Assembly (NCBI RefSeq): GCF_013912005.1
Contig: NZ_JACESB010000006.1
Span: forward strand, 1 to 35,783
Direction: 5' to 3'
Length of the DNA: 35,783 bases
Source of the DNA: Brevundimonas sp.
GTDB lineage: Bacteria > Pseudomonadota > Alphaproteobacteria > Caulobacterales > Caulobacteraceae
In this document: piece by piece, positions 719 to 30,733 of the stretch
Layout: the number at the start of each line of letters is the position of its first letter
Position numbering within the stretch: the stretch's first letter is position 1
Made by a program: the position numbers and the translations under genes
The notes under the pieces: generated by a model
Told to the model about the DNA's origin: nothing
The model's database searches: none
What the model saw: only the letters and a program-made list of their open reading frames with translations

Positions 719-2379
<1,661 letters not shown>

Positions 2380-2380
<1 letters not shown>

Positions 2381-9558: not shown

Positions 9559-9983
9559 TTATCGGGCGATACGTACGTTGGACTTGAGCGCTCCAGTTTG
9601 TCGCGTCGAGAGATCGACGAGGATCGGACAGTCCGGCCGGTCGTCGCCGGCGCAGCACTTCGCCAAGGTGCGCAGGGCGTCGGCCATCGCCTTCATCTCG
9701 GCGATGCGGGCGTCGAGATCGGCGACGTGCTTCTGGGCGATCGCCTTGACCTCGCGACTGGGGCGATCGCGATCACGCCAGAGCGACAGCAGATGGCCGA
9801 TCTCCGCCACCGAGAACCCGAGGTCGCGGGCGCGGCGAATGAACTGCAACTCGTGCACGTCCCGCTCGCCGAAGTCACGGTAGTTGCTGTCCGTCCGGTC
9901 CGCCGGGCGGATCAGGCCGACGGACTCGTAGTACCGGATCATCTTGGTCGACACGCCCGTCGCCCGGGAGGCCTGGCCGATGT

Positions 9984-9987
<4 letters not shown>
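9559..9987 (-). CDS. cueR: CueR-type Cu(I)-responsive MerR regulator
   Basis: A 142-aa MerR-family activator. The N-terminal helix-turn-helix ([20 protein letters not shown]) and the long dimerisation helix are present. The metal site is that of CueR: Cys112 and Cys120 in [12 protein letters not shown], plus Ser77, the residue that marks monovalent-ion sensors (Cu+, Ag+, Au+) rather than Zn or Hg sensors. Position numbers match E. coli CueR exactly. It would bind cytosolic Cu+ and untwist a promoter with a 19-bp spacer; two such sites lie at 12506-12528 and 13159-13181. The start overlaps the copA stop by ATGA, so it is the last gene of the copA transcript and is autoregulated through copA. 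Confidence 0.93.
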
Positions 9988-12467
<2,480 letters not shown>

Positions 12468-13519: not shown

Positions 13520-13767
13520 GGTTATGCTCCATGCATCCGGAACCCGTCCCGAAACCCGAAGAACCCCTGGCGCTCAGCCAGCGCGAGACCGAATGCCTGG
13601 CCTGGGTCAGCCGCGGCAAGAGCTCCTCAGACATCGGCGCCATTCTTGGGTTGTCGCCGCGAACGGTCGACAGCTATCTCGAAAAGGCCTGCGCGAAGTT
13701 GCGCGTCCGCACCCGGATCGAGGCGGTGGCCCTCGCCGTCCGCACCGGCCTGATCGATCCGATCTGA
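13516..13767 (+). CDS. Single-domain LuxR-type transcriptional regulator
   Basis: An 83-aa protein made of a LuxR/GerE helix-turn-helix: [20 protein letters not shown] followed by [16 protein letters not shown] and a C-terminal helix ([19 protein letters not shown]). There is no receiver or autoinducer domain, so any signal must come from another protein or from its own level. The start ATG overlaps the copZ-like stop (ATGA), so the two are cotranslated and presumably CueR-controlled. A second in-frame ATG lies six codons in. What it regulates is unknown; the copper genes around it are candidates. Confidence 0.8.
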
Positions 13768-14128
13768 AGGGGAGGGGGCGGGCCTGGAACTTCTGTACGG
13801 AAGCCCGGCGTTTCACAGCCGATCGCCGCCGACGCCGAAGACGTCCCCTGGCTCAAGATCGACCGCTATCGTTCCGGAACCCGCCGGGGACTCTTCTACA
13901 TCACCGTCGGCGTCCGCGCATGCCCGGCATCCGGGTGGACGGGTCTGTACGCAGCGGCCGTCGCGGCCCCTCGTCGCTGGCGGACGACGACGACTATATT
14001 TCGCACTCCGGAACCGTCGCCGGAAGGCGGGGTTGTTCAGGCGTTCGCAACAAAGGGAGCCGGATCGCGGAACGGTTTTGTCCCGTTTGCCACGGAACGC
14101 CGCGTACGCCATCCGGCCGTAAGCCGCC
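13768..14128 (+). other. Intergenic region without a supported gene
   Basis: About 360 bases between the LuxR-type regulator and the DUF305 lipoprotein. Open frames here lack ribosome binding sites and family features. It should hold the promoter of the downstream DUF305 pair, for example around the relatively AT-rich CGACTATATTTCGCAC near 13991. I see no CueR-type box in it. Confidence 0.5.
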
Positions 14129-15322: not shown

Positions 15323-16048
15323 TCAGCCCGCCGCGGCGCGGCGACGCGATCGCCACATCGACCAGTCCCGCGCCAGCCGGATCCAAAGCAGGATGAAGCC
15401 GGTGATCACGATGGTGAAGGTCAGGAAGGTGACAATGATGATCAGGGGGTGGTTGAAGTTTTCGCCCTTCTCCAGGTCCATGATGTGGAGCCGCCAGAAG
15501 AAGTCGTAGAAGCGCCACACCGCCGAGCGGCGGGTGACCACCTCACCGGTCTGCGGCGACAGGTAGAAGGTGGTGCGTTCCCTGTCGTCGAAGTCGACGC
15601 GCCAGATCGGCCCCTCGCGGCCAGTCTCCTGGGGGGCCTTGTCGAGCAGGACGGCGGCGGTCGGCGCGCCTTCGCCCTGATAGGCGCCCTGAGCCAGTCG
15701 CCGGGCCAGAGCGGCGTCGAGGGGTGGGAAGGCCTCGCCGGTCACGGCGGACACTGTCACCGGTTCGCCCTTCGCGGGCTTCAGGATCCAGGCGGGGCCG
15801 CGCGGGGTGGACCTGAGCTCCGCGCCGGCCACCGCCAGGCCGCGAGCGCGGGCGATGTCGCCGGGACTCCTGAGACTGTCGAAGGCGATGGGGACGGCTT
15901 CGCGCTCGCGAACATGGTGCTCGCTGCGCACGGTCTCGATCGGGATGGCGGTCATCACCAGCCCGCCGGCGACCCAGAACAGCACCTGGATGCCGACAGC
16001 CAGCGCGATCCACTTGTGCAGCTGGGTCGAGAGTCGAAGCACCTTCAT
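15323..16048 (-). CDS. PepSY-type membrane protein
   Basis: A 241-aa protein with an N-terminal membrane span (about 12-34), a periplasmic region with PepSY-like elements (YLSPQTGEVVTRRSAVWRFY near 168-187) and a second span near the C-terminus (about 205-226). The segment WRLHIMDL is typical of PepSY-associated membrane proteins. These proteins are often linked to metal or haem reduction and uptake in the periplasm; the reaction here is unknown. It is the last gene of a minus-strand operon, starting 8 bases after the DUF411 gene. Confidence 0.8.
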   Translation of the reverse strand: MKVLRLSTQLHKWIALAVGIQVLFWVAGGLVMTAIPIETVRSEHHVREREAVPIAFDSLRSPGDIARARGLAVAGAELRSTPRGPAWILKPAKGEPVTVSAVTGEAFPPLDAALARRLAQGAYQGEGAPTAAVLLDKAPQETGREGPIWRVDFDDRERTTFYLSPQTGEVVTRRSAVWRFYDFFWRLHIMDLEKGENFNHPLIIIVTFLTFTIVITGFILLWIRLARDWSMWRSRRRAAAG

Positions 16049-16056
16049 CGTGGTCC

Positions 16057-16536
16057 TCAGGCTTGGGCGTTATGGCGGGCGAAAAGGCGGGTTGCGCCAT
16101 TCTTCAGCACCAACAGGGTGTCGTAGGGCTCGCGGTCGCCGCCCGGCGTCTCCATCCCGGGCGATCCCGGCGGCATGCCCGGAACGGCGATCCCGACCGC
16201 CTCGGGCCGCTCGGCGAGCAGGCGACGAATGTCGGCGGCGGGCACATGGCCTTCGACGAAGTAGCCGGCGACGCGGGCGGAGTGGCAGGACGCCAGCGTT
16301 TCAGCCAGGCCGTGACTGCTGCGCAGGCCGCGCAGGTCCGCCAGGATGTTGACCGACACCATGAAGCCGGCGCCCCGCAGATGGCTTATCCAGGCGTCGC
16401 AGCACGCGCAGGTCGGGGTTTTGTAGACGGCGATCGCGTGGTTTTCCCGCGCCTGGCCGCAGGCGGCGGCCGGCGCGACGGCGGCCAGAACAACGCAGCC
16501 GAGGACGGCGCGGCGGGCGAGAACGGGCAGGGGCAT
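16057..16536 (-). CDS. DUF411 periplasmic metal-binding protein
   Basis: A 159-aa exported protein: a signal sequence (about 1-26), then the DUF411 core. The motif KTPTCACCDAW carries Cys43, Cys45 and Cys46. ASCHSA has Cys84 and His85. EGHVPA (95-100) and GMPPGSPGME (about 129-138) complete the family pattern. DUF411 proteins sit beside copper-resistance genes and are presumed to bind Cu(I) through these Cys/Met/His residues. The gene is separated by 81 bases from the NTF2-like gene upstream and by 8 bases from the PepSY gene downstream, consistent with one transcript. Confidence 0.9.
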   Translation of the reverse strand: MPLPVLARRAVLGCVVLAAVAPAAACGQARENHAIAVYKTPTCACCDAWISHLRGAGFMVSVNILADLRGLRSSHGLAETLASCHSARVAGYFVEGHVPAADIRRLLAERPEAVGIAVPGMPPGSPGMETPGGDREPYDTLLVLKNGATRLFARHNAQA

Positions 16537-16617
16537 CGGGAGGCTCGGTGTTGGTGACGAGGCGCCGAAACGACCGCGAACTTCAGCGGCCTGGACGGGC
16601 TGGCGTGTGGGAAAGGT

Positions 16618-17115
16618 CTAGGCGGCCGGGCGCGGCGCCCGCGAAGACGAATGATAGCGGATGATCCGCCAGCGTCCATCGCGGCGCTCGAGCACGCTGG
16701 TGGCGACGCCGCGCCGCTCGACCGTCGCCCGGGTGGGATCCTTGAAGACGATCCGGTAGCGGTAGGTCTCGGTCGCATAGGCGAGGTCGCCGGCCACCGT
16801 CGTCTCGAGTCGCCGGTCCTCGAAGGTGAACGCCGAGAACGCGGCCAGTTCCGGCCCGAGGTGGTGGGCGAGATAGTCGGCGAAGCGGCCCTCGACGCCG
16901 CCCTGCTCGTAGACCTGCGCCTCCGGCCAGAAGAACTGTGCAGCGGCCTCGCCGTCGAGCGCTTCGACGGCGGCCCGGTAGCCTTCCAGCACGGCAGCGA
17001 CCTCGCTCTGGGCCTGGGAGGCGGCCTGGGGCGCTGGCGTCGCGTGGGCCAGGACGGGCGGAGCGACAAGAAGGACGGCGAGCAGGCTCAGGGCCGCGAT
17101 CAGCATGCGGGACAT
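16618..17115 (-). CDS. Secreted NTF2-like/SnoaL-fold protein
   Basis: A 165-aa protein with a signal peptide ending near ALAHA (residue 24) and an NTF2-like domain (about 38-155) of the kind seen in DUF4440/SnoaL proteins: VLEGYRAAVEALDGEAAAQF, an ALVYEQG-like segment and the final GRWRIIRYH. No catalytic residues typical of the enzymes in this fold can be pointed to, so it may only bind a ligand. Its ATG overlaps the acyltransferase stop (TGATG). Similar proteins occur in copper clusters of related bacteria, but the role is unknown. Confidence 0.75.
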   Translation of the reverse strand: MSRMLIAALSLLAVLLVAPPVLAHATPAPQAASQAQSEVAAVLEGYRAAVEALDGEAAAQFFWPEAQVYEQGGVEGRFADYLAHHLGPELAAFSAFTFEDRRLETTVAGDLAYATETYRYRIVFKDPTRATVERRGVATSVLERRDGRWRIIRYHSSSRAPRPAA

Positions 17116-18275
17116 CAGAAGGGTTCTCCTTGGTCGCTGTGGACGCTGCGCGCCTGTTCCAGCCCGGGGACAGGTTCGCGCCGTTCGACGAGCCGGCGGA
17201 TCAGCCGTCGGCCAGGGCGCTCGATCGCCATGTGGATTCCGGCCGCCGCGGCCAGGGTCAGGGTCAGCAGGAGCGCCAGTTCCCCCAGACCCATCCGATA
17301 GTCGCCGCCGAGACCGGCGAGCCTCTGGACGGCGTTACGCCAGACCATCAGCACGGGCAGGTGAACCAGGTAGAGGGCGTAGGACGCCTCGCCGGCGAAC
17401 AGCCAGAGCGGCTGTGACAGGAAGGTGCGGGCGCCGGATTTGGCGAGCAGGGCGAGCGCCAGCAGGAAAGGCCCCGAGAGGGCGACGATGAGGCGGTCGT
17501 CGAGCGGGATCTGCATGGCCGCGAGCAGGGCGGCGGTCGCTGCCAGCACGGCGGCGATCGCCGCCCGGGGGGAGAGCGCCACCCGCTGTCCCAGATAGTA
17601 GAGGCCTATCCCGAACAGGAACTCCGGCGCGATGCGCAGGATGCCCATGCTGTCTTCGGCCCGCGGCAGGACCACCCCGAAGACCCTGCGGTAGACGAGG
17701 TCGAGGGCCAGGAAGAACAGGGCGGCCAGGCCGGTCAGGACCAGCGGTCGGTCGCGCAGACGAAGGGCGATCCAGGCGAAGGCCGGAAAGGTCAGGTAGG
17801 CGAACCATTCCGCGGACAGCGACCAGGCCGGCCCGTTCCACAACGCCAACGACTGGCGCGGGAACCAGGCCTGGACCAGCAGCAAGGTCTGGACGAAGTC
17901 CGGGGCGTTGAAACGACCCGGCTCCAGGCCCACCCCCGCCAGGGGCGCCGCCAGCACCAGGGCCAGCATGCCCAGAAGGATGGCCAGGTGGGCGGGATAG
18001 ATCCGGGCGAACCGCGCCGCCAGGAAGCGCCGGTATCGGGGTTGGGCGTTCCCCTGCAGATAGACGTGGGTGAGGATGAAGCCCGACAGGATGAAGAAGA
18101 TGTCGACCCCGAGACGGGTCCGGTCCAGCAGGCCCGAGGCCGACGGCGGCAGCGTCCAGTAGAGCTGGTAGTGGAACAGCACCACCCCCAGGGCCAGGAA
18201 GAAGCGGATGCTGGTCAGCGGGTCCAGGACATCGGGGAAGGGATGGCGTCTAGAAGCGGAGATGGTTGACGCCAT
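17115..18275 (-). CDS. Membrane acyltransferase 3 family protein
   Basis: A 386-aa integral membrane protein of the OafA/YrhL acyltransferase-3 family, with about ten hydrophobic segments. Family features: LTSIRFFLALGVVLFHY (20-36) with the conserved His35, GVDIFFILSGFILTH (56-70), and the RFLAARFARIYPAHL segment. Such enzymes transfer acyl groups to sugars or lipids of the envelope. The start at 18275 overlaps the 3' end of the DUF2231 gene by 26 bases and has no clear ribosome binding site, but no better start is seen. Its presence inside a copper operon is unusual and suggests envelope modification under metal stress; the substrate is unknown. Confidence 0.85.
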   Translation of the reverse strand: MASTISASRRHPFPDVLDPLTSIRFFLALGVVLFHYQLYWTLPPSASGLLDRTRLGVDIFFILSGFILTHVYLQGNAQPRYRRFLAARFARIYPAHLAILLGMLALVLAAPLAGVGLEPGRFNAPDFVQTLLLVQAWFPRQSLALWNGPAWSLSAEWFAYLTFPAFAWIALRLRDRPLVLTGLAALFFLALDLVYRRVFGVVLPRAEDSMGILRIAPEFLFGIGLYYLGQRVALSPRAAIAAVLAATAALLAAMQIPLDDRLIVALSGPFLLALALLAKSGARTFLSQPLWLFAGEASYALYLVHLPVLMVWRNAVQRLAGLGGDYRMGLGELALLLTLTLAAAAGIHMAIERPGRRLIRRLVERREPVPGLEQARSVHSDQGEPF

Positions 18276-18885
18276 GGGTCAGCGCGCCTCCGAGCCAGGC
18301 GTTGAGCAGGACCGCCAGGGTCACCGCGGCCAGCGCCGCCGCGTAGAGGCCGCGCGCGGCGCGGCCAGACTGCCGACGCATCGATCGCTCCTTGGCCCAC
18401 CAGGCCAGCAGCCCGAGCGCCGCGATCCCGGTCCCGAGCCACCGATGGAGGGTGTGGGTGGCGTCCTCCACCGGACCTGGCAGGCCCATCGCCAACCAGC
18501 CCAGGGCCGCGGCCCCGATGGCAGACAGCGCGGCCAGGGCGATCAGCACCCGCGTCCCGTCCGTTAGCCAGGCGCGTCGTCCCCAGGCCGCCGCCGCCTC
18601 GAGAACCGCGGCCACCAGGAACAGCGCGATCGGAAAATGCACCACGGCCGGATGCCAGCGACCGAGCCAGCGGACGAGGCGCTGCGGCATCGGTTTGGGC
18701 TCGGCGGCCGCCTCCGTGGCGGTATGATCCATGGCGGCGTGGTCCATGGCCGCCGGCGCGCCGGGCTGCGCCGCCGCGGCGGTCGGCGGGGGCGCCTTCT
18801 TGTGATCCTCGTGCGCCCAGCTCGGAGCCGTGACGAAGAGGGTTCCGATCGCCAGGACTGCCGGAATCCACCGCGACAACATCAT
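18250..18885 (-). CDS. DUF2231-like membrane protein with His/Met periplasmic segment
   Basis: A 211-aa protein: signal-like first span, then a metal-binding-looking stretch (HEDHKK, AMDHAAMDH at about 25-54), then four membrane segments. The segment WHPAVVHFPIALFLVAAVLE at 78-97 is characteristic of DUF2231 proteins. The conserved His in HPAVVHFP suggests haem or metal binding in this family, but this is not proven. It is the first gene of the five-gene minus-strand operon and is divergent from the CnrY-like gene across 128 bases. Regulation by the neighbouring ECF sigma factor is plausible. Confidence 0.8.
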   Translation of the reverse strand: MMLSRWIPAVLAIGTLFVTAPSWAHEDHKKAPPPTAAAAQPGAPAAMDHAAMDHTATEAAAEPKPMPQRLVRWLGRWHPAVVHFPIALFLVAAVLEAAAAWGRRAWLTDGTRVLIALAALSAIGAAALGWLAMGLPGPVEDATHTLHRWLGTGIAALGLLAWWAKERSMRRQSGRAARGLYAAALAAVTLAVLLNAWLGGALTHGVNHLRF

Positions 18886-19013
18886 TTCCCCCTCCGCACC
18901 AAGGCTTGCTATCCAGTGTTACGCGCTGGCCTCTCGGCCCCCTCGTCGGCCGCGCGGCGAGGGCCGTAGCCCCGGCGCGCGTAGTTCGAAATGGGGCGTG
19001 AAGGACGACGATC

Positions 19014-19280
19014 ATGGACAATCTGGATCAATGGCTGGCGCGGGTTCCGCCGGGCGGCCCGTCGCTGAACCAGCTGGAGGCCGATGTCTGGGGCCGCGTT
19101 CGAGCCATGCGGGCCGAGCGGGCCACGGCGCGTGTGCGCGTGGTCGCGGTGATCTTCGCCCTGAGCGTGGGCGTGGCCAACGGCGGCCTGGGGGCCAGCC
19201 TGGCCCGGCCGCCGGCCTCGGAGATGTCGGTGTTCTCCTCCGCCGCTCTGTTGCCCCTGGCGCGCCTGGAGGTTCACTGA
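19014..19280 (+). CDS. CnrY-like membrane anti-sigma factor
   Basis: An 88-aa protein with a cytoplasmic N-terminal part (1-40, containing DNLDQWLARVPP and an amphipathic helix), one membrane span (about 42-64) and a short periplasmic tail. This is the layout of CnrY, which binds and holds the ECF sigma factor CnrH at the membrane. Sequence similarity is hard to judge for so short a protein; the assignment rests on size, topology and gene order. Its stop TGA overlaps the ATG of the CnrX-like gene (TGATG), and the sigma factor gene follows, giving the same Y-X-H order as in cnr/ncc systems. Confidence 0.7.
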   Translation: MDNLDQWLARVPPGGPSLNQLEADVWGRVRAMRAERATARVRVVAVIFALSVGVANGGLGASLARPPASEMSVFSSAALLPLARLEVH

Positions 19281-19720
19281 TGACAATCGGCTGGAAATCC
19301 ATCGCCGTGACCACCGTGCTGGCGATCGCCGCCAGCGGCATGGGCGCCTGGGGCGGCGCGACCTGGGTACTGCAGCGGCAGACGCCGCCCTCGCTGCATG
19401 AGATCGTCCATCGCGACCTCGACCTTGACCGGGGCCAGTTGGCCCGAATCGAGGCGATCGAGTCGCGCTTCGCGACACGCCGGATCGCCCTTGAACAGCG
19501 GGTCCAGGCCGCCAACCGGGAACTGGCGCAGGCCATCGCCGAGAGCGACGGCGACAGCCGCAAGGTGCAGCCGGCGATCGATCACTTCCACGACGCGATG
19601 GGCGACCTCCAGCAGGCCACGGTCGCCCACATCTTCGAGATGCGGACGGTGATGACGCCGGCCCAGGCCGAGCGGTTCGATCACAGCGTGATCGCGGCGC
19701 TGGCGGTCGCGGGCGAGTAG
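19280..19720 (+). CDS. CnrX-like periplasmic metal sensor
   Basis: A 146-aa protein with an N-terminal membrane anchor (about 8-30) and a helical periplasmic domain. It keeps the metal ligands described for CnrX (His42, His46, Glu63, His119, Met123) each shifted by exactly two residues: His40 and His44 in LHEIVH, Glu61, His117 and Met121 in HIFEM. The following segment TPAQAERFDH also fits the family. It would sense a metal in the periplasm and relieve the anti-sigma factor. In Cupriavidus this site responds to cobalt and nickel; here the surroundings are copper genes, so the true inducer is open. Overlap with the upstream gene indicates coupled translation. Confidence 0.82.
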   Translation: MTIGWKSIAVTTVLAIAASGMGAWGGATWVLQRQTPPSLHEIVHRDLDLDRGQLARIEAIESRFATRRIALEQRVQAANRELAQAIAESDGDSRKVQPAIDHFHDAMGDLQQATVAHIFEMRTVMTPAQAERFDHSVIAALAVAGE

Positions 19721-19726
19721 GCGGCG

Positions 19727-20293
19727 GTGACGGCCGAGGAGGATCTGCCGGCCAGGGCCGCAGCCGGGGATCCGGAGGCCTTCGAACGCCTGATGCTGGC
19801 CACCAAGGCCAGTCTCTATCGGCTCGTCCGGCGCTATGTCGGCGACGCGGACGAAGCCTACGACCTGGTGCAGGAGACCTACGCCGCGGCCTGGCTGGCG
19901 ATCCGCCGCTTCGATCCGAAACGCCCCTTCGAGGCCTGGCTGAGGACCATCGCGCTCAACAAGTGCCGGGACTGGAGCCGCCGACGGCGGGTCAGACATT
20001 GGTTGCTGGGCGCCGCCGACCTGGCCGACCGCGAAGCCTTGGCCGTCGCCGATGAGGCCCGGGGCGCGGCGGAACAGTACGAACTGGGCCAGACGCTCGG
20101 CCGGCTCGAGGCGGCCATCGCCGACCTGCCGGCCCGGCTCAAGGCGCCGCTCCTGCTGACCGCGCTGGAGGAGCGCAGCCAGGCCGAGGCCGCCGCCATC
20201 CTGGGCGTCTCGGTCAAGGCGGTGGAGACCCGCGTCGCCAGGGCGCGACGCAAGCTGGCCGAAGCGCTGGGGCCCGCGGCCGGGGCGATCTGA
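19727..20293 (+). CDS. ECF sigma factor (CnrH-like position)
   Basis: A 188-aa RNA polymerase sigma factor of the extracytoplasmic-function group. Region 2 spans about residues 10-80 (DADEAYDLVQETYAAAWLAI and FEAWLRTIALNKCRDWSRR) and region 4 about 125-180 (LPARLKAPLLL, QAEAAAILGVSVKAVETRVA). The start is GTG 19727 with GGCGG just upstream. It follows the sensor gene by six bases and would be held inactive by the CnrY-like protein until the sensor binds metal. Likely targets are its own operon, the divergent DUF2231 operon and the downstream multicopper oxidase operon. I could not identify a convincing shared promoter. Confidence 0.88.
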   Translation: MTAEEDLPARAAAGDPEAFERLMLATKASLYRLVRRYVGDADEAYDLVQETYAAAWLAIRRFDPKRPFEAWLRTIALNKCRDWSRRRRVRHWLLGAADLADREALAVADEARGAAEQYELGQTLGRLEAAIADLPARLKAPLLLTALEERSQAEAAAILGVSVKAVETRVARARRKLAEALGPAAGAI

Positions 20294-20429
20294 GCGGGCC
20301 GGGAACGGTCGGCCGCACGACGCTTTGATCGCGCGTTGCGTCAACTTGCCCGAGGGCGCCGCGCCGCGCGCGCGTAGACCGGAAGAAGGCCGGGGTTCGC
20401 CGCGGGACGCCGCCAGTCTGGAGCCAGGT

Positions 20430-22217
20430 ATGAAGTTCGATCGTCGCGCCCTGCTGGGCGGAGCCGCCGCAGGCGGCGGCCTGTGGGCGCTGCAGGCCTT
20501 GCTGCCGGCCTGGGCTCAGACCGACTCGGCAGGCCTGAGAGCGGACCTGCCGACGCTAACCGGCCCGGACATCGGCCTGACGATCGGCCGGACGCCGTTC
20601 ACGGTCAACGGTCGGACCGGGCAAGCGGTCACCATCAACGGCACGCTGCCGGCGCCGGTGCTGCGTCTGCGGGAGGGCCAGACCGTACGGCTGTCGGTCA
20701 CCAACACCCTCGACGAGGACACCTCGATCCACTGGCACGGGATCCTGCTGCCCTTCCAGATGGACGGGGTGCCCGGCATCAGCTTCCCGGGCATTCGCCC
20801 GCGCGAGACCTTCGTCTACGAGTTCCCGATCATCCAGTCGGGCACCTTCTGGTACCATAGCCATTCCGGGCTTCAGGAGGCGCTCGGGCACTACGGCCCC
20901 ATCGTCATCGATCCGGCGGGCGCCGATCCGGTCGGTTACGACCGCGAGCACGTGCTGGTCCTGTCGGACTGGAGCTTCATGCGTCCGCACGAAATCCTCG
21001 AGAAGCTGAAGAAGAGCCCCGGCTACTTCAACCGCCAGCGCACGACCTTAGCCGGGCTGCTGGACGGCAGCGACCGGATGAGTCTGGAAGAGCGGCGCAT
21101 GTGGGGATCCATGCGCATGGACCCGCGCGACATCCTCGACGTCAACGGCTCGACCTACACCTACCTGATCAACGGTCATGGCCCGGCGGAGAACTGGACC
21201 GGCCTGTTCCGCCCCGGCGAGCGGGTCCGGCTGCGGATCATCAACGCCTCGGCCATGTCGATCTTCAACGTCCGCATCCCCGGTCTGGCGATGACCGTGG
21301 TCCAGGCCGACGGCGAGAACGTGCGGCCGGTGGAGGTCGACGAGTTCCAGATCTCGGTCGCCGAGACTTACGACGTCATCGTCCGGCCGACCGAGGATCG
21401 GGCCTACACCATCGTCTCCGAGGCCATCGACCGCTCCGGCATGGGGCGGGCGACCCTCGCCCCCCGGCCGGGCATGACCGCCGAGGTCCCGCCGCTGCGC
21501 CAGGTCCCCAACCTGACAATGCGGGACATGGGCATGGGTAGCATGGACCATGGCGCCATGGCCGGCATGGATCACGCCGCCATGGGCGGCATGGCTCATG
21601 GGAGCGCGAGCCCCGACCCGGCGTCCGGCGACGGGGCCATGTCCATGGCCGGCATGAACATGCGCGATCCCGACAACGCCCCGCCGGACATGGAGGTGGG
21701 CGTCGGCGTGGACATGGTCTCGATGGATCCGGCCAACCGCCTTGGCGAACGGCCGACGGGATTGGAGACCGTTCCACACCGGGTGCTCGTTTATACCGAC
21801 CTCGTCTCCCTGCAGCCCAACAAGGATCAGCGCCCGCCGTCGCGAACGATGGAGATCCACCTGACCGGCAACATGGAGCGGTTCATGTGGGGCTTCGACG
21901 GCCGCAAGTTCAGCGAACTGGTCGAACCGATCCGCTTCGAACGCAACGAGCGGGTGCGGGTGACCCTGGTCAACGACACCATGATGGCCCACCCCATCCA
22001 CCTGCACGGCCACTTCTTCGAACTGGTGACGGGTGGTCCCGCAGGCCATCAGCCGCTCAAGCACACGGTGAACGTCGCGCCCGGCGGCAAGGTGACCTTC
22101 GACCTGACCGCCGACAATCCCGGCGACTGGGCCTTCCATTGCCACCTGCTGATGCACATGCACGCGGGGATGTTCAACGTCGTGACCGTCCGCCCCCTCG
22201 AAGGAGCCGCCTCGTGA
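20430..22217 (+). CDS. Copper-resistance multicopper oxidase CopA/PcoA
   Basis: A 595-aa periplasmic oxidase that would convert Cu(I) to less toxic Cu(II). The Tat signal has the twin arginine (MKFDRRALLGG). Copper ligands are in HWH (101-103), HSH (143-145), HPIHLHGH (521-528) and HCHLLMHMH (570-578), which together make the type 1 and trinuclear sites. A Met/His-rich insert at about 365-415 (repeats like MDHGAMAGMDHAAM) is typical of CopA/PcoA and gathers copper. I chose ATG 20430 because the Tat signal begins there; the open frame further upstream has no features. The stop overlaps the copB GTG start. It heads the operon with copB, a lipoprotein and copC. Confidence 0.95.
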   Translation: MKFDRRALLGGAAAGGGLWALQALLPAWAQTDSAGLRADLPTLTGPDIGLTIGRTPFTVNGRTGQAVTINGTLPAPVLRLREGQTVRLSVTNTLDEDTSIHWHGILLPFQMDGVPGISFPGIRPRETFVYEFPIIQSGTFWYHSHSGLQEALGHYGPIVIDPAGADPVGYDREHVLVLSDWSFMRPHEILEKLKKSPGYFNRQRTTLAGLLDGSDRMSLEERRMWGSMRMDPRDILDVNGSTYTYLINGHGPAENWTGLFRPGERVRLRIINASAMSIFNVRIPGLAMTVVQADGENVRPVEVDEFQISVAETYDVIVRPTEDRAYTIVSEAIDRSGMGRATLAPRPGMTAEVPPLRQVPNLTMRDMGMGSMDHGAMAGMDHAAMGGMAHGSASPDPASGDGAMSMAGMNMRDPDNAPPDMEVGVGVDMVSMDPANRLGERPTGLETVPHRVLVYTDLVSLQPNKDQRPPSRTMEIHLTGNMERFMWGFDGRKFSELVEPIRFERNERVRVTLVNDTMMAHPIHLHGHFFELVTGGPAGHQPLKHTVNVAPGGKVTFDLTADNPGDWAFHCHLLMHMHAGMFNVVTVRPLEGAAS

Positions 22218-23596
22218 TCCGCGCCTCCGCCGCACTGCATCTGCTCGTCCTGGCCGCGGCCCCGCCGGCCTTCGCCCAGTCGCATGCCGGCCATCTCTCG
22301 ACGCCCCAGGCCGGGCAGGCGGCGCCCCCGCGGGCCGGCTGCGTCCGCCGGGGCGCGCCGACGGCCGACGCGGCGCGCCTCGGACAACCCGGCGCGCCGG
22401 CCTGTCCGACCGGTTATGTGCCGGAACGATCGCCCGCCGCCGACCCGCACGCCGGTCACGACATGGGCGCCCCGGGGCAGCCCCAAGTCGCACCGGCGAG
22501 CGATCCGCATACGGGTCACGCCATGCCGGAGACGCCGGCGCCGAGCGCCGATCCGCACGCTGGCCATGACATGGGCGCCCCGGAGCAACCCCAGGCCGCT
22601 CCGCCGAGCGATCCGCATGCGGGTCATGCCATGCCGGAGACGCCGGCGCCGAGCGCCGATCCGCACGCTGGCCATGACATGGGCGCCCCGGCGCGACCCC
22701 AGGCCGCTCCGCCGAGCGATCCGCACGCCGACCACCCCATGCCAGGAACGCCGGCTCCCGTCGCGGCGGACCCCCATGCCGGTCACGACATGGCCGGCAT
22801 GGCAATGCCGCCGGACGTGCCGACCAGCGCCGACACCCCGGGCCGGCCGCCGGAGGATCCGGCCCCCCCGGCGGCGTCGCGGGGCCCGGCGCACGCCGCT
22901 GACCTCCTCTTCGATCCGGCAGAGATGGCGGCCGCCCGGGAGCAGATGCGCGCGGAGAACGGAGACGTCCGCACCACGGCGGTGGTCTTCGATCGGCTCG
23001 AGGCGAACCTCGGTGACGGCGAGGAAGGGTTCGCCTGGGACGCCGAGGGCTGGAGCGGGGGCGACATCAACCGGTTCTGGTGGAAGTCGGAAGGGGAGGG
23101 GGGTTTCGGCGACGAGGTCGAGGAGGCGGGGGTGCAGGCGCTCTACAGCCGCGCCGTCGCGCCCTTCTGGGACGTCCAGGCGGGCCTGCGCCAGACCTGG
23201 CGGCCGGTAGAGAACCGGACCGACCTGGTGATCGGCGTCCAGGGGCTGGCGCCCTACTGGTTCGAGGTCGACGCCGCCTTGTTCCTGTCCAACAAGGGGG
23301 AGCTCACCGCGGCCGCCGAGGGCGAGTACGATCAGCGCATCACCAATCGCTGGATCCTGCAGCCGCGCGCCGAGGTGAATCTCTCGGCCGAGGACATCCC
23401 CGAGCTGTCGATCGGTGCGGGTTTGACCTCGGTGCAGCTCGGCGCGCGTCTGCGCTACGAGATCCGCAAGGAATTCGCGCCCTACATCGGCGTGGAATGG
23501 ACGAAGCGCTTCGGCCGCACGGCCGACTACCTCGAGGCCGCCGGACGGAACACCGAGGATACTCGGATCGTCGTCGGCCTGAGAGCCTGGTTCTAG
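22214..23596 (+). CDS. copB: CopB-type outer-membrane copper-resistance protein
   Basis: A 460-aa protein starting at GTG 22214, four bases overlapping the oxidase stop. A signal peptide (ending AFAQ near 22) leads into a long low-complexity region (about 70-230) with His/Met copper-binding repeats DPHAGHDM or DPHAGHAM, encoded by a tandem DNA repeat. The C-terminal half (about 230-460) is the CopB/PcoB beta-barrel domain: FDRLEANLG, WDAEGW, WWKSEGE, YSRAVAPFWDVQAG and a terminal aromatic (RAWF) as outer-membrane proteins show. It would bind copper and possibly export it. Repeat number may vary between strains. Assignment is firm. Confidence 0.92.
   Translation: MIRASAALHLLVLAAAPPAFAQSHAGHLSTPQAGQAAPPRAGCVRRGAPTADAARLGQPGAPACPTGYVPERSPAADPHAGHDMGAPGQPQVAPASDPHTGHAMPETPAPSADPHAGHDMGAPEQPQAAPPSDPHAGHAMPETPAPSADPHAGHDMGAPARPQAAPPSDPHADHPMPGTPAPVAADPHAGHDMAGMAMPPDVPTSADTPGRPPEDPAPPAASRGPAHAADLLFDPAEMAAAREQMRAENGDVRTTAVVFDRLEANLGDGEEGFAWDAEGWSGGDINRFWWKSEGEGGFGDEVEEAGVQALYSRAVAPFWDVQAGLRQTWRPVENRTDLVIGVQGLAPYWFEVDAALFLSNKGELTAAAEGEYDQRITNRWILQPRAEVNLSAEDIPELSIGAGLTSVQLGARLRYEIRKEFAPYIGVEWTKRFGRTADYLEAAGRNTEDTRIVVGLRAWF
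22442..22768 (+). repeat. 108-bp tandem repeat inside copB
   Basis: Three in-frame units begin at 22442, 22550 and 22658 (the last is 111 bp) and a partial fourth begins at 22769. Each encodes 36 residues with two His/Met motifs, DPHAGHDMGAP and DPHAGHAMPETP. Units 2 and 3 are nearly identical, so they arose by recent duplication. Confidence 0.9.
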
Positions 23597-23944: not shown

Positions 23945-24343
23945 ATGCGCAAGCTGCTTTCTCCCGTCCTCGTCGCCCTTTCCGCCTTCGTCCTGGCCGG
24001 CGTCGCCCAGGCCCAGACCGATCCGCATGCCGGGCACCACCCCGCCCCCGGAGCCGCCGCCCAGGCCGCCGAGGTCCGCACGACCCCGGCCGACGGCTGG
24101 ATGGGCTCAACCGCCCCGACCGCCTTCAGCATCACCTTCCGGCATCCAATGCGGCTGACCGCCGTGAGCCTGAAGAGCGGTGAGGCCGACCCGGCGGCGA
24201 TCGCCGTGACCGACGCCGCCTCGAGCGCGGCGGTCAGCGTGCCGTTGCCGGCGCTGGCCAAGGGCAACCATGTGCTGACTTGGTCGGCCCAAGGCGCCGA
24301 CGGCCACGTCATGAACGGCGTTGTCCGCTTCATGGTCCACTGA
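23945..24343 (+). CDS. copC: CopC-like periplasmic copper-binding protein
   Basis: A 132-aa exported protein: signal peptide ending near AQAQ (22-25), a His-rich N-terminal tail (DPHAGHHP) and a CopC-type beta-sandwich, recognised by FRHPMRLTAVSL and HVLTWSAQGADGHVMNG. CopC proteins normally bind Cu(II) through an N-terminal His exposed by signal cleavage; here the mature N-terminus appears to begin with Gln-Thr-Asp-Pro-His, so the usual site is absent or altered. It is the last gene of the operon. No copD partner was seen in the window. Confidence 0.85.
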   Translation: MRKLLSPVLVALSAFVLAGVAQAQTDPHAGHHPAPGAAAQAAEVRTTPADGWMGSTAPTAFSITFRHPMRLTAVSLKSGEADPAAIAVTDAASSAAVSVPLPALAKGNHVLTWSAQGADGHVMNGVVRFMVH

Positions 24344-24367: not shown

Positions 24368-24464
24368 ACAGGTCTAGACCGACCTGTGGTCTTCTGTCGC
24401 AGGCGCGTATTCGAGGCGGCGATGATGAGGGGAGGACGGCGACGGCGCGTAAAGCCACGCCGTC
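24368..24464 (+). terminator. Candidate terminator hairpins after copC
   Basis: Two inverted repeats follow the copper operon: ACAGGTC (24368-24374) with GACCTGT (24381-24387), and GACGGCG (24441-24447) with CGCCGTC (24458-24464). Neither is followed by a clear T-run, so a classical intrinsic terminator is not shown. They may form a structured 3' end. Confidence 0.35.
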
Positions 24465-24536: not shown

Positions 24537-24920
24537 ATGGAAGGCGCGCCAACTTCGAACATGTGGACGCTGCTGCGAGCCCTCCTCGTCGCCTTCGCCC
24601 TGGCCGGTCTTGCCGGCCAGTTCGGCGCTCACGCGACGACCCCGCCGTCGGCCGCCCAGGCGGCCGCGACGATGGACGACTGCGCGGATATGGAGGGCAT
24701 GACGGACTCGGACCGCTCCGGGCGCGGTCAGCCGTGCTCGGATAGGACCCCTGCCTGCATAGCCAATATGGGATGCGCGGCGCCCCTCGCGGTGCTTCCC
24801 GCCGTCGTCGGGACGCCCATCCCGGCTGCGGCGACGGTGCGGCTGCGTGCGGATTCGCAGCGGAGCCTGGACGAGGTCCAGGGGCCTGGGATTCTGAGGC
24901 CGCCCAGGACCGTGGCCTAA
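24537..24920 (+). CDS. Small secreted Cys-containing protein of unknown function
   Basis: A 127-aa protein that I do not recognise by name. It has a hydrophobic signal segment (WTLLRALLVAFALAGLAGQF at about 10-29) and then several cysteines in DDCADMEGM, GQPCSDRTPACIANMGCAA, with Met residues close by. A disulphide-linked or copper-binding secreted protein is suggested. The start could also be the ATG at 24561, just before the signal segment; neither has a clear ribosome binding site, and an AT-rich stretch lies directly upstream. It precedes the efflux genes by 73 bases and is probably the first gene of that operon. Confidence 0.6.
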   Translation: MEGAPTSNMWTLLRALLVAFALAGLAGQFGAHATTPPSAAQAAATMDDCADMEGMTDSDRSGRGQPCSDRTPACIANMGCAAPLAVLPAVVGTPIPAAATVRLRADSQRSLDEVQGPGILRPPRTVA

Positions 24921-24993: not shown

Positions 24994-26298
24994 ATGTCTG
25001 CTCTCTTCTGCGGGAGGGCGCGCGTCGGCGGGCGCGGCCATTCCCGCATCGCCGACCCGCCGGCGGGTCGCCAGGCCGCCGTCGCCGCCGTCCTCGCCTT
25101 GGCGCTCGCCACCCCGTCCTTGGCCGGACCGCTCACCTACGGCCAGGCGCTTGAGCGCGCCGCGGCCGACGCGCCGGAGGTCCGCGCCCGCGGCCTGGCG
25201 GTCGACGCCGCCCGGGCCGCTGCGCCCGCCGCCGGGCAACTGCCCGACCCCGAGCTCTCCGTCGCGGTCGAGAACCTTCCGGTCTCCGGCCCCATGGCCG
25301 GTTCGTTCGGTCGGGACGAGATGACCATGGTCCGGGTCGGGGTCATGCAGGCCGTGCCGAGCGGCGCCCGGCGCCGCGCCGAGCGCCAGATTGCCGCCGC
25401 CGATATCGGCGTGGCCGAAATGCAGTCGCAGATCACGCGTCGCGAGGTCCGGGTCGCCGCGGCCCTGGCCTGGACGGACCTGCATTACGCCAAGCGACGG
25501 CGCGAGGCACTGGACGAGGTGCTGGCGGCCCTGGAACCGCTGTGGGACGCCGCGCCTGCCGCCGTCGCCTCGGGTCAGGACCGGCCGGCCGGCGCCCTTT
25601 CGCCCATCCGCCTGAAGGCCGCCCTGGAGGACCGTCGCAGCGCCCTGGTCGCGGCCGAAGAGCGCGCCCGGGCCGAGCTCGCGCGCTGGACCGGCGAGCC
25701 CGATCCGCAGGCCGATGGCCCGCCGCCCGAGCCGGTTCTGGACGAGGGACGGCTTCGGGCCGGCCTGGAGCAGGTCCCGACCCTGCGCGCCTGGACCGCG
25801 GTCGCCGATCGCGCCGACGCGGAAACCGATCTCGCCCGGGCCGGACGCCAGCCCGACTGGAGTTTCGAACTTGGCTACGGCCGGCGCGATCCGATGTACG
25901 GGGATATGGTCTCGGTCGGCGCGCGCGTGAGCCTGCCGCTGTTCGCCGACCGCCGCCAGGATCCGGTGATCGCGGCGCGCTCGGCCGACGCCCGCCGGGT
26001 CCGCATCGAACGCGAGGCGGCGACGCGGGGTCTGCGCGCCGCTCTTGAGGCGGACCTCGCCGAGCACCGGATGCACCACGACCAGTGGCGGCGAGCCCGC
26101 GACGTGCTGCTGCCGGCCGCCCGCGACCGCGCCTCGCTCGAGACTTCCAGCTACGGCGCCGGACGGGCCGGCCTGGCGGACGTCATCGACGCCTTCACCG
26201 GGCTCGCCGACGCCCGCCTCGAAACCCTGGACCGCGAGGCGCTGGTCGTCCGCGAGGCGGTCCGCATCTCGCTCACCTACGGGGAGGACCCCCAATGA
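24994..26298 (+). CDS. Outer-membrane efflux protein (TolC family, CusC-like)
   Basis: A 434-aa outer-membrane channel subunit of a metal RND pump. After a signal segment ([16 protein letters not shown] near 31-45) come two outer-membrane efflux domains: [32 protein letters not shown], then in the second half [17 protein letters not shown] and [15 protein letters not shown]. These coiled-coil and strand segments are typical of TolC relatives. The N-terminus before the signal is unusually long and Arg-rich, so the start may be wrong. The stop overlaps the ATG of the CusB-like gene (ATGA). Substrate copper or silver is inferred from the partner genes. Confidence 0.88.
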
Positions 26299-27584
26299 CC
26301 CGCATTGCCCAGAACCGGTCGAGGCTCGCCCTCGGCGCGGCCGGCCTGCTAATCCTCGGCGCCGCCGTCGGCGTGGCCGTGGTCCGCGTCCTGCCGGCCG
26401 GCGAGACGTCCCCGGCGGCCCAGGCGCCCGAGCGACGCGTGCTCTACTGGTACGACCCTATGGCTCCGGACCGGCATTTCGACGCGCCGGGCAAGTCACC
26501 GTTCATGGACATGCCCCTGGTCCCCCGCTACGCCGACGAGGCGGAGGCCGGGCAGCAGGCCGGCGTGCGGATCGATCCGGCCCTGACCCAGGCCCTGGGC
26601 GCGCGCTACGCCGTCGTCCAGCGGGGCGTCCTGGCGGGCGACCTGACCGTCACGGCGGTGGTCGACTTCAACCAGCGCGACGTCGCCGTGGTCCAGGCGC
26701 GGGCCGGCGGTTTCGTGCAGCGGGTCTATGGCCGGGCGCCGGGGGACGTGATCGCCGCCGGCGCGCCCCTGGCCGACCTGCTGGTCCCGGAGTGGGGCGG
26801 AGCCCAGGCGGAGTACCTGGCCGTCCGGAGCGCCGGCGACCCGCGCCTGGTCCAGGCCGCCCGCCAACGGCTGCTTCTGCTGGGCATGCCGGAGGCGCTC
26901 ATCTCGGCGGTGGAGCGCAGCGGTCGCCCGCGCACCACGGTGACGGTGACCAGCCCGTCCGGCGGCGTGATCCGCACGCTCAGCGTGCGTGCCGGCATGA
27001 CGGTCTCCCAGGGCCAGACCCTGGCGGAGGTGAACGGCCTGTCGACGGTCTGGCTGAACGCCGCCGTTCCCGAGGCGCAGGCCTCGCGGCTGCGTGTCGG
27101 GCAGGCGGTGGAAGTCACCTTCGTCGGCTTCCCGGGGGAGCGCTTCAGCGGCCGGCTCGGCGCGCTGCTGCCGGAGGTGTCCGGCGACAGCCGCACCCTG
27201 ACCGCCCGGGTGGAGCTCGCCAACCGCGGCGGACGGCTGCGGCCCGGCATGTTCGGGCAGGTCGTCTTCGGCGGCGGAACCGAGGAGACCCTGCTGGTCC
27301 CGTCCGAAGCGGTGATCCGCACCGGAACCCGGACGTTGGTCATGCTTGCGGAAGGGGACGGCCGCTACCGCGCCGCCGAGGTTCGCATCGGCCGCGAGGC
27401 CGGCGGGCAGACCCAGATCCTCCAGGGCCTCGCCGAGGGCGAGCGGGTGGTCGCCTCCGGCCAGTTCCTCATCGACTCCGAGGCCAGCCTGAGCGGCGTC
27501 GCGGTTCGTCCGCTGTCCGGAACCGCGGCGTCCCCGCGTCCGGCCCAGGCGTCCGGCCACGCCGGGCACGGGGGAGCGCACTAA
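26295..27584 (+). CDS. cusB: RND efflux periplasmic adaptor, CusB-like
   Basis: A 429-aa adaptor with an N-terminal anchor (about 12-32), a heavy-metal-binding N-terminal region (YWYDPMAP...[15 protein letters not shown]), lipoyl/barrel-sandwich and beta-barrel domains, and a His-rich C-terminal tail (GHAGHGGAH). The three Met residues that bind Cu(I) in E. coli CusB are present with the same spacing: Met56, Met71 and Met73. It would pass copper to the CusA subunit. Translation is coupled to the upstream channel gene (ATGA) and to the downstream pump gene (TAATG). Confidence 0.92.
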
Positions 27585-30500
27585 TGATCGCCGCCCTCAT
27601 TCGCCTGTCGGTGCGCGCCCGCGTCCTGGTGCTGATCCTGGCGGCCGCGCTGTTCGCCGCCGGCCTGCTGGCGGTGCGCGGCACGCCGGTGGACGCCTTG
27701 CCGGACCTCTCCGACGTCCAGGTGGTGATCCGCACCCCATACCCCGGACAGGCTCCGCAGATCGTGGAGAACCAGGTCACCTATCCGCTGGCGACCACCA
27801 TGATGTCGGTGCCCGGAGCCCGGACCGTGCGCGGCTATTCCTTCTTCGGGGACAGCTTCGTCTACGTCCTGTTCGAGGACGGGACCGATCTCTACTGGGC
27901 CCGCTCGCGGGTGCTGGAGTATCTCAACCAGGTCCAGGCCCGGCTGCCGGAAACCGCCCGGCCGGCCCTGGGCCCCGACGCCACCGGGGTCGGCTGGATC
28001 TACCAGTACGCCCTCGTCGACCGGACCGGTCGCCACGACCTGTCCCAACTGCGCAGCCTGCAGGACTGGTTCCTGCGCTATGAGCTCAAGACCGTGCCCG
28101 GCGTGGCCGAGGTGGCCACGATCGGCGGCATGGTGCGCCAGTACCAGGTCGTGCTCGACCCTGTGAAACTGGCCGGCTACGGCGTCACCCACCAGGCTGT
28201 GACCGATGCCCTGCAGCGCGCCAACCAGGAGACGGGCGGCTCGGTGCTGGAGCTGGCCGAGGCCGAGTACATGGTGCGCGCCAGCGGCTATCTGACCAAC
28301 CTGGACGACTTTCGGGCTGTGCCGATCCGCACCGCCGCGAGCGGCGTGCCCGTGCGCCTGGGCGACGTCGCCACCGTCCAGGTCGGACCGGAGATGCGCC
28401 GGGGCGTCGCCGAGCTGAACGGGGAGGGCGAGGTCGTCGGCGGCGTCGTCGTCCTGCGCTCGGGCGAAAACGCCCGCGCCGTCATCGACCAGGTGCGGGA
28501 CCGGCTGGCCGCGCTCAAACCGAGCCTTCCCGCCGGTGTCGAGATCGTTCCCGTCTACGACCGCTCCGGCCTGATCGACCGGGCCATCGAGAACCTCAGC
28601 GGCAAGCTTTTGGAGGAGTTCATCGTCGTGGCGCTGGTCTGCGGCCTGTTCCTGTGGCACGCCCGCTCGGCCCTGGTCGCCATCCTGACCTTGCCGCTCG
28701 GGGTCATGGCCGCCCTGCTGGTGATGAACCTGCAGGGGGTGAACGCCAACATCATGTCGCTGGGCGGCATCGCCATCGCCGTCGGCGCCATGGTCGACGC
28801 CGCCGTGGTCATGATCGAGAACGCCCACAAGCACATCGAACGCTGGGAACACGACCACCCCGGCGAACGGTTGCTGGGGGAGGCCCGGTGGCGGGTGGTC
28901 ACGGAGGCCGCCGCCGAGGTCGGCCCGGCCCTGTTCCTCAGCCTGGTGATCATCACCCTGTCCTTCGTGCCGGTGTTCAGCCTGCAGGCCCAGGAGGGGC
29001 GGCTGTTCGCGCCACTGGCCTTCACCAAGACCTACGCCATGGCGGCGGCGGCGATCCTTTCGGTCACCCTCGTGCCGGTGCTCATGGGCTATCTGATCCG
29101 CGGCCGCATTCCCGCCGAGCAGGACAATCCGGTCAACCGCGTCCTGACGCGGCTCTATCGGCCCGCGCTCGATCTGACGATGCGGCGACCCCGGCTGACG
29201 CTCGCGGTCGCCCTGCTGGTGCTGGTGTCGGCGGCCTGGCCGCTGTCGCGCCTGGGCGGCGAGTTCCTGCCGGCCATGGACGAGGGCGACCTGCTCTACA
29301 TGCCCTCCGCCCTGCCGGGCCTGTCCGCCGCCCAGGCCTCCAGCCTGTTGCAGCGGACGGATCGGATGATCGCCGCCGTGCCCGAGGTGAAGACGGTGTT
29401 CGGCAAGGCCGGCCGCGCCGAGAGCGCCACCGATCCGGCTCCGCTGGAGATGTTCGAGACCACCATCCAGTTCAAGCCGAGGGACCAGTGGCGACCCGGC
29501 ATGACGCCGGAGAAGCTGGTGGAGGAGTTGGACCGCGCCGTCCAGGTTCCGGGTCTGTCCAACGTCTGGGTGCCGCCGATCCGCAACCGGATCGACATGC
29601 TGGCCACCGGCATCAAGAGCCCGATCGGGGTCAAGGTCTCCGGGGCCGACCTCGCGGAGCTGGATCGGATCGCGGCCGAGGTCGAGCGGGTGGCCAAGGA
29701 CGTGCCGGGGGTCAGTTCGGCCCTGGCCGAGCGCCTGACCGGTGGCCGCTACATCGACGTCGACATCGACCGCGCGGCCGCCGGCCGCTACGGCCTGAAC
29801 ATCGCCGACGTGCAGTCGATCGTCGCCGGCGCCATCGGCGGGGAGACCATCGGCCAGACCGTCGAGGGCCTGGCCCGCTATCCGATCAGCGTCCGCTACC
29901 CGCGGGAACTGCGCGACAGCGTCGAGGACCTGCGCGCCCTACCGGTGCTGACCCCGTCCGGCCAGCAGATCACCCTCGGGACCGTGGCCGCCCTGCGCGT
30001 CGCCGACGGGCCTCCGATGCTGAAGAGCGAGAACGGCCGGCCGTCCACGTGGGTCTATGTCGACGTGCGGGGGCGGGATCTCACCTCGGTGGTCTCGGAC
30101 CTGAGGCGCGCCGTCGGCGCGCAGGTGCGGCTGTCGCCGGGCGTCAGCATCGCCTACGCGGGCCAGTTCGAGTATCTCGAACGCGCCGGCCAGCGGCTGG
30201 CGCTGGTGATTCCGGCCACCCTGCTGATCATCTTCGGCCTGCTTTACCTGACCTTCCGGCGGCTCGACGAGGCGCTGCTGATCATGGGTACGCTGCCGTT
30301 CGCCCTCGTCGGCGGGGTCTGGCTGCTCTACCTGCTCGGCTACCACCAGTCGGTGGCGACCGGCGTCGGCTTCATCGCCCTGGCCGGCGTCTCGGCCGAG
30401 TTCGGCGTGGTCATGCTGATATACCTTCGGCACGCCCTGGCCGAACGGGGCCCGACCCCGTCGCCCGAACAGGTCGAGGCGGCGGTGCGCGAAGGCGCTC

Positions 30501-30733
30501 TTCTGCGGGTGCGACCCAAGGCGATGACGGTAGCCGTCATCCTGGCCGGCCTGTTCCCCATCCTGATCGGCCACGGCGCCGGGTCGGAGGTGATGAGCCG
30601 CATCGCCGCGCCCATGATCGGCGGCATGCTGACCGCGCCGCTGCTGTCCATGCTGGTCATCCCCGCCGGCTATCTGCTGCTGCGACGGCGACGCGCCCGC
30701 CCCGCGGTGCGCAGCGGGGGCGGCGCGTCGTGA
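27584..30733 (+). CDS. cusA: Heavy-metal RND transporter, CusA-like Cu/Ag pump
   Basis: A 1049-aa inner-membrane proton antiporter of the heavy-metal RND family with twelve membrane segments and two periplasmic loops. The copper-binding Met triad of E. coli CusA falls at the same numbers: Met573 in LLYMP, Met623 in PLEM, Met672 in RIDML. Proton-relay Asp405 (GAMVDAA) and Glu939 (SAEFGV) also match in number; the Lys of RPKAM is at 979. The real start is ATG 27584, overlapping the adaptor stop (TAATG); the frame is open far upstream, but that is a shadow of other genes. It would pump Cu+/Ag+ from periplasm or membrane through CusB and CusC. Very sure. Confidence 0.95.

Follow-up and report, generated by a model that had tools for sequence, protein, structure and literature searches.

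Three consecutive genes at 19014..20293 in a Brevundimonas sp. contig were originally predicted to form a switch like the cobalt/nickel switch CnrYXH inside a copper island. The window, by which we mean the whole stretch of DNA analysed here, comprises 35,783 nucleotides (NZ_JACESB010000006.1, positions 1 to 35,783). The locus raises the question of which metal such a switch answers and which genes it controls. Two alternatives had been set out, namely that the CnrX-type sensor has been recruited for copper, or that cobalt/nickel stress triggers copper defence.

Identification of the switch and its copper neighborhood

The three genes lie on the forward strand in the order Y-X-H, as in the CnrYXH/NccYXH family, and all parts of the predicted switch were recovered: a small protein of 88 aa predicted to be a CnrY-type anti-sigma factor (Y, 19014..19280), a CnrX-type periplasmic metal sensor of 146 aa (X, 19280..19720) and a CnrH-type ECF sigma factor of 188 aa with a GTG start (H, 19727..20293). 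X matches the Pfam family Metal_resist (PF13801) with 56.8 bits against a cut-off of 29.2, and its hits among PDB sequences at E up to 1, seven in all, belong exclusively to CnrX or NccX (best E 5.5e-18). Since the listed CnrX alignments run without gaps, the five ligands of X (His40, His44, Glu61, His117 and Met121) lie at CnrX spacing, which bears out the claim made for them; the protein additionally carries His104 and Met107, the residues that characterize the copper-type sensors defined below. The matched CnrX chains 2y3h and 3zg1 have an altered residue at the Glu and the Met ligand positions respectively, which would fit their use as test mutants. H contains Sigma70_r2 and r4_2 domains, and in a search of PDB sequences its closest solved relative is CnrH (4cxf, E 5.5e-34; runner-up E 5.1e-16). 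Region 4 of this protein finishes at about residue 177, and it has a single cysteine overall and no Cys-rich C-terminal extension. Y has no match in Pfam, NCBIfam or PDB sequences and aligns weakly with CnrY (14% identical in a multiple alignment); it is recognised solely by its position, its size and this alignment, which together suggest an anti-sigma role. X and H of the window recur unchanged in Brevundimonas viscosa.

The genes that follow H encode a CopA/PcoA-type multicopper oxidase (20430..22217, plus strand; TIGR01480 840 bits, cut-off 479), the outer-membrane copper resistance protein CopB (22217..23596, plus strand; PF05275) and, after one small gene, CopC (23945..24343, plus strand; PF04234); these genes take the place of the effector operon, where no CnrCBA or NccCBA pump is found. 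A second small gene of unassigned family (24537..24920, plus strand; no Pfam match) stands between CopC and an outer-membrane factor, and heads a cus-like set made up of this factor, a CusB-like adaptor and a CusA/CzcA-family RND pump (24994..30733, plus strand). The adaptor scores 343 bits to CusB, below the cut-off of 390, versus 132 to CzcB. The pump scores 1371 bits to TIGR00914, a label that does not separate Cus from Czc/Cnr, and is 34% identical to CnrA. The copper oxidase, CopB and Cus genes named by the original prediction are thus all accounted for. On the minus strand, divergent from the switch, is a predicted operon of DUF2231, acyltransferase, SnoaL-like, DUF411 and PepSY_TM genes (15323..18885), delineated by Pfam matches and reading-frame spacing. 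Farther away on the same strand lie a copper P1B-type ATPase, belonging to the cytoplasmic arm of copper defence (9984..12467; TIGR01511 598 bits, cut-off 397), and the cytoplasmic Cu(I) regulator CueR (9559..9987; TIGR02044 167 bits, cut-off 147, match 9610-9987). The claimed absence of CusRS/CopRS systems is supported by the genome, in which none of 49 response-regulator matches passes the CopR/SilR cut-off (TIGR01387; best 234 bits versus 279). A large serine recombinase (755-2380, minus strand) is encoded close to the window's left end, and a cytosine methylase and a GIY-YIG protein occur in its vicinity, suggesting possible mobility of the copper island.

A promoter signature common to the switch and the copper operons

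Reading the intergenic gaps by eye, we noticed a signature of the form RAGGG-N15-GCGTA before yxh, before copA-copB, before the divergent DUF2231 operon and before the cus-like operon. The predicted sigma promoter of yxh (18959..18983, plus strand) reads GAGGG-N15-GCGTA; those of the DUF2231 operon (18920..18944, minus strand), of copA-copB (20352..20376, plus strand) and of the 24537 gene with the cusCBA-like genes (24427..24451, plus strand) score 15.6, 16.9 and 21.4 bits respectively with the promoter matrix described below. A fifth match is an orphan with no gene behind it on its strand (13948..13972, minus strand). B. viscosa (L012) and one near-identical MAG (L013) share this orphan site, which a second such MAG (L014) lacks. 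Opposite it, at about 13517-13768, is a reading frame that looks LuxR-like by eye.

Chance placing of the motif was considered and rejected on the basis of spacing controls, shuffles and a matrix trained without the window. The five sites of the window compare with a mean of 0.15 and a maximum of 2 in 200 dinucleotide shuffles. The matrix, from whose training the window, its paralogue and three near-identical relatives were excluded, ranks these five sites first within the window (15.6-21.4 bits), although its training sites were chosen by the core pattern, so that this test is not independent of the pattern. In the genome, GAGGG-(11 to 17)-GCGTA has 33 matches, and all eight of total length 25 fall in two copper islands while the remaining 25 are scattered; similarly, RAGGG-N15-SCGTA has 13 sites in the 2.89 Mb genome, ten of which are within the two islands. 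The totals themselves are not enriched, with reversed-pattern controls giving 51 matches versus 33 for the GAGGG form and 11 versus 13 for RAGGG-N15-SCGTA, and hence the case rests on place and spacing. Unlinked sites can also score high, as seen in L213 (15.9 bits), inside a gene of a cnr operon (15.0 bits) and in L186 (13.9 bits).

The signature resembles the mapped promoters of the cnr system. On plasmid pMOL28 the cnrY start lies directly behind AAGGG-N16-CCGTA and the cnrC start behind GAGGG-N16-CCGTA, at a distance of about 9 nt (starts from the available part of PMC9045368), so that both elements of the window sites recur with a spacer one base pair longer than N15. Because of this spacing the mapped cnr promoters score just 2.9 and 1.3 bits with the matrix. 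CnrH-type promoter elements thus appear to precede both Y and the effector operon in the window, with N15 where cnr has N16. An alternative that we regard as very improbable is that the motif is the site of another regulator, or has merely spread with the island, and that H does not use it. One table tags the cnrY start, 23 nt before the gene, as RpoD (PMC11647585, as far as available), in keeping with this alternative, but the same start is among the nickel-induced promoters, cnrYp and cnrCp, that the accessible text of PMC9045368 describes as CnrH-dependent, and it is before these very starts that the two elements occur at near-equal spacing. Moreover, in 174 unique sites collected in the survey presented below both elements are conserved and the spacer hardly at all, and the start implied for the window lies about 22 nt before Y, compared with 23-24 nt for cnrY.

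A second island and the cobalt/nickel pumps of the same genome

The genome contains a second complete yxh (L003, G000:C1:25000-42000; Y 8803-9084, X 8366-8806 and H 7793-8356, all on the minus strand), which has its own copA and copB behind it, is divergent from an acyltransferase gene and encodes an X 60% identical to that of the window. Within this island, motif sites precede Y, copA, copCD and the acyltransferase gene. As the two copies share the same promoter signature, cross-activation between the islands may be expected.

A cobalt/nickel pump elsewhere in the genome was considered as a competing target. The prediction that no such pump is seen holds for the window and fails for the genome, which has two CnrA/CzcA-like pump operons on other contigs (L210 and L211), with pumps 51-52% identical to CnrA. 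Both operons lack the promoter signature: the best matrix scores in their stretches are 7.1 and 6.8 bits, and neither of these lies at an operon start, as read from the reading-frame lists. We therefore reject this target at the sequence level. The motif stands before the operons neighbouring the switch, and a cobalt/nickel efflux operon as its sole target was not found.

Other loci bear on the extent of the regulon. Just past the window, a motif site at C39:46144 opens a minus-strand run of DUF2933-like, isoprenylcysteine-methyltransferase-like and copper P-type ATPase genes (L185 7338-10723; G000:C39, about 42.8-46.2 kb), the first two named by eye; the membrane motif of this ATPase is CPD, the usual one being CPC. 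A third Metal_resist gene, on C21, was considered as another yxh copy and rejected, as its neighbours are an EF-hand protein and an ECF sigma factor other than H, and its product has no ligand histidines apparent by eye. This locus (L217 3018-5172, G000:C21, minus strand) comprises the ECF sigma factor, a downstream membrane-protein-like frame, the Metal_resist protein and the adjacent EF-hand-like protein, and the sigma/Metal_resist pair can be likened to the sigV/calcium-binding-protein circuit of Caulobacter (PMC13171946, from the part available).

Copper-type and Cnr-type switches across genomes

Searches with X gave matches in 149 of 299 sampled genomes of the family, in 12 of 385 of the class (E up to 1e-3, weak ones counted) and in 22 of 398 of the phylum, as well as in 79 plasmid records, mostly of sphingomonads, which name the proteins 'periplasmic heavy metal sensor' and 'RNA polymerase sigma factor'. 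We inspected 13 weak X-like loci from the phylum and class samples; with one weak exception, none of them has a sigma factor resembling CnrH (E up to 1e-3) in the surrounding 1.5 kb or so. Our survey comprises 99 X entries: 80 X genes, each in a stretch of about 14 kb, together with plasmid and genome loci, the second copy and the window. It is uneven, since the window's family supplies most entries and since L012, L013 and L014 nearly duplicate the window. Of these entries 94 are copper-type, with His104 and Met107, and five are Cnr-type, with Glu and Ala in these positions; the latter are exactly those that precede CnrB-/CnrA-like genes, and come from three Cupriavidus plasmids (two with identical X), G550 and one locus of G035.

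H adjoins X in all 94 copper-type entries. A CopA oxidase or CopB is encoded in 89 of the 94 copper-type stretches and any of CopA, B, C or D in 90; in 62 entries the oxidase is immediately downstream, whereas a Cnr-type pump is never found in that position (0/94). Somewhere in the stretch there is a CusA-like gene in 13 entries and a CnrA-like gene, nearer CnrA than CusA, in nine. The four entries without CopABCD are L131, L134 and L139, which have CusA-like genes nearby, and L149, which has just a CnrA-like gene, upstream. The linkage of the switch to copper genes recurs in both Caulobacterales and Sphingomonadales.

The promoter signature was examined in the same entries. An N15 motif lies upstream of Y in 73 of the 94 copper-type entries. 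The other spacings between 10 and 21 account for 0 to 5 entries each, and 100 shuffles yield 0.06 on average and 2 at most. The N15 motif also occurs on the opposite strand before Y in 49 entries and in the gap that follows H in 60. The exact motif is missing before Y in 21 entries. In 14 of these there is a form with a GCGTA core that deviates by one letter, by one extra base in the spacer or in both ways, and two more (L136 and L166) have an ACGTA form; the shuffle control applies to the exact motif and not to these loose forms. In the stretch before Y of the remaining five (L115, L120, L126, L142 and L149) we found no form of the motif, though L115 and L120 have a site closer to X instead. 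The Cnr-type entries show the N16 spacing in three of five before Y and in three of five behind H; the Y site of L174 reads N15, and none was found in L152. Genomes of the genus with X have a mean of 10.6 motif matches (n=51) versus 5.4 in those without X (n=20; p = 3e-6), and the reversed-pattern control also differs, to a lesser extent (7.8 versus 5.9, p = 0.005).

These distributions bear on the second of the original alternatives, that the switch still senses cobalt or nickel and the copper genes form a cross-protection regulon. All five CnrX ligands are kept, and CnrX binds cobalt and nickel tightly (PMC7689651, available in part); a point against a copper reading is that the five-ligand site is that of the cobalt/nickel sensor. 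Nevertheless, the lack of a Cnr-type pump directly downstream in any copper-type entry, and of the promoter before the CnrA-like pump operons of the genome, make this alternative unlikely. So does the genome G035, which belongs to the same family as the window and has five X matches: at L152 (G035:C2:1733997-1748428) a Cnr-type yxh with a Glu/Ala X is followed by CnrBA-like genes, while two further surveyed copies, L150 and L151, are of the His/Met copper type. This genome offers a natural pair for testing the choice of metal. Recruitment of a CnrX-type switch for copper is the better supported alternative, because the signature stands before copper operons and not before the CnrA-like pump operons, and because the linkage recurs.

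Residues separating the two types of sensor

The five CnrX ligands are common to both groups, save that three copper-type sensors (L155, L167 and L168) have Asp for His40, L167 additionally having Ile for Met121. As the known ligands do not differ between the branches, the determinant of copper versus nickel must be elsewhere. We found six fixed or nearly fixed differences. His104 and Met107 are present in all 94 copper-type sensors, with Glu and Ala respectively in all five Cnr-type ones, and are kept in 62 of 62 sequences after thinning at 80% identity, making them more constant than His40 or Met121. Gln53 (Cnr-type Glu) and Gln129 (Cnr-type His) are each likewise present in 94 of 94, Leu47 (Cnr-type Val) in 93 and Phe133 (Cnr-type Tyr) in 92. 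Histidine and methionine are common copper ligands, and by helix spacing residues 104, 107, 111, 114, 117/118 and 121 would share one face of a helix. Glu72 is also well conserved among the copper-type sensors (89 of 94). We tentatively propose, while giving the idea rather less than even weight, that the CnrYXH family is mainly a copper family in which the textbook cobalt/nickel switch is a minority branch, and that His104-x-x-Met107 might form a second site determining copper specificity, located on the same helix as His117 and Met121; the cobalt/nickel branch has Glu and Ala there. In sigma trees built without L151, the sigma factors of the five Cnr-type entries group in a single clade (SH-aLRT 98 and 96), so that a single old change explains the residue pattern and a function for His104 and Met107 is only suggested by it. 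With eight other ECF factors as outgroup, and the L158 sigma, apparently read in a wrong frame, dropped beforehand, the root of the tree was unsupported (copper group 41).

The same residues help in weighing a further alternative, that the switch responds to more than one metal or to general envelope stress, with copper genes as its commonest targets through linkage only. A precedent of sorts is the copper-answering SigAb of Acinetobacter with its large indirect regulon (PMC12153292, in the part available), and the four copper-type entries without CopABCD would be in line with it. Given the fixation of His104 and Met107 in copper-type entries and the scarcity of exact-spacing sites, ten of 13 of which are in copper islands, we hold this to be more improbable still than cobalt/nickel sensing.

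A model for the switch and its relationship to known systems

The above observations make it quite likely that the locus represents a copper-dedicated branch of the CnrYXH family, in which copper would trigger X and Y to release H onto RAGGG-N15/16-GCGTA promoters of copper genes. The gene order, ligand conservation, common promoter signature, likeness to the cnr promoters and recurrent copper-gene linkage on which this draws were all computed. As the same signature precedes the switch and the copper operons, the former appears to turn on copper-defence genes; Y is the presumed anti-sigma factor, H the putative reader of the signature and copper the presumed inducer. Release is modelled on CnrYXH, where metal bound to X weakens the hold of Y on H (PMC7689651, as available). 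At rest, a membrane-bound Y would retain H at the membrane's inner face, a state in which Y would be kept by the periplasmic domain of X; when periplasmic copper rises, metal would bind X, Y would release H, and the freed H would direct RNA polymerase to the signature promoters. In the window it would thereby activate yxh itself, a positive feedback, along with copA-copB(-copC), the cus-like genes and the divergent operon of DUF2231 and acyltransferase genes; the targets in the second island would be its yxh and acyltransferase operon as well as copA-copB and copCD. The switch would thus constitute the periplasmic arm of copper defence, with CueR and the P1B ATPase as the cytoplasmic arm. The periplasmic copper circuit originally envisaged therefore gains support from promoter placing and recurrent linkage to copper genes, while the sensing of copper itself is what we infer.

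By structure we class this as a CnrYXH-type switch, and not as a cobalt/nickel determinant. It shares with CnrYXH of Cupriavidus metallidurans pMOL28 the order Y-X-H, the five ligands, CnrH as the nearest solved sigma factor, and -35 (RAGGG) and -10 (CGTA) elements before both Y and the effector operon. It differs in its effectors (CopAB, CopCD and Cus-type genes in place of CnrCBA-T), in a spacer mostly 1 bp shorter, in having His104/Met107 where CnrX has Glu/Ala, and in having, nearly always, Leu47, Gln53, Gln129 and Phe133 where CnrX has Val, Glu, His and Tyr. NccX of the nickel/cobalt/cadmium system NccYXH is likewise among the structures matching X (4clv, E 2.6e-16), but nccYXHCBAN is a pump operon (PMC3637150, in the part accessible).

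The same kinds of effectors, CopAB and Cus, are controlled in answer to periplasmic copper by CusRS, CopRS and PcoRS, which, in contrast, consist of a kinase and a response regulator, the latter being a type of which the present genome has no example above the CopR-type cut-off. Among copper-linked ECF sigma factors, CorE of Myxococcus xanthus senses copper itself via a Cys-rich C-terminal extension and has no anti-sigma factor, according to the available text of PMC10141476, whereas H is devoid of such an extension. SigF/NrsF of Caulobacter crescentus, from the same bacterial family, governs a copper-induced ECF regulon, but with NrsF as anti-sigma factor and DUF692 and DoxX-type targets, and the core table in the available part of PMC8224329 does not include pcoAB. 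In Acinetobacter the sigma factor of SigAb/AabAB is copper-activated and the predicted AabA-SigAb contact resembles that of CnrY and CnrH; there, however, the sigma gene comes first, the metal genes are mostly indirect targets, and the accessible portion of PMC12153292 makes no mention of a CnrX-type sensor. Our literature search found no description of a CnrYXH-like copper switch, though most subscription journals lie outside its coverage and absence is unproven.

Under the copper reading, metal selectivity in the CnrX fold would become directly testable through the six differences named above. The promoter signature, for its part, provides a way to read copper regulons from unannotated genomes. 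If the copper reading itself holds true, the switch would represent a further route of periplasmic copper signalling, besides the two-component systems, in a group of environmental bacteria in which numerous plasmids encode it.
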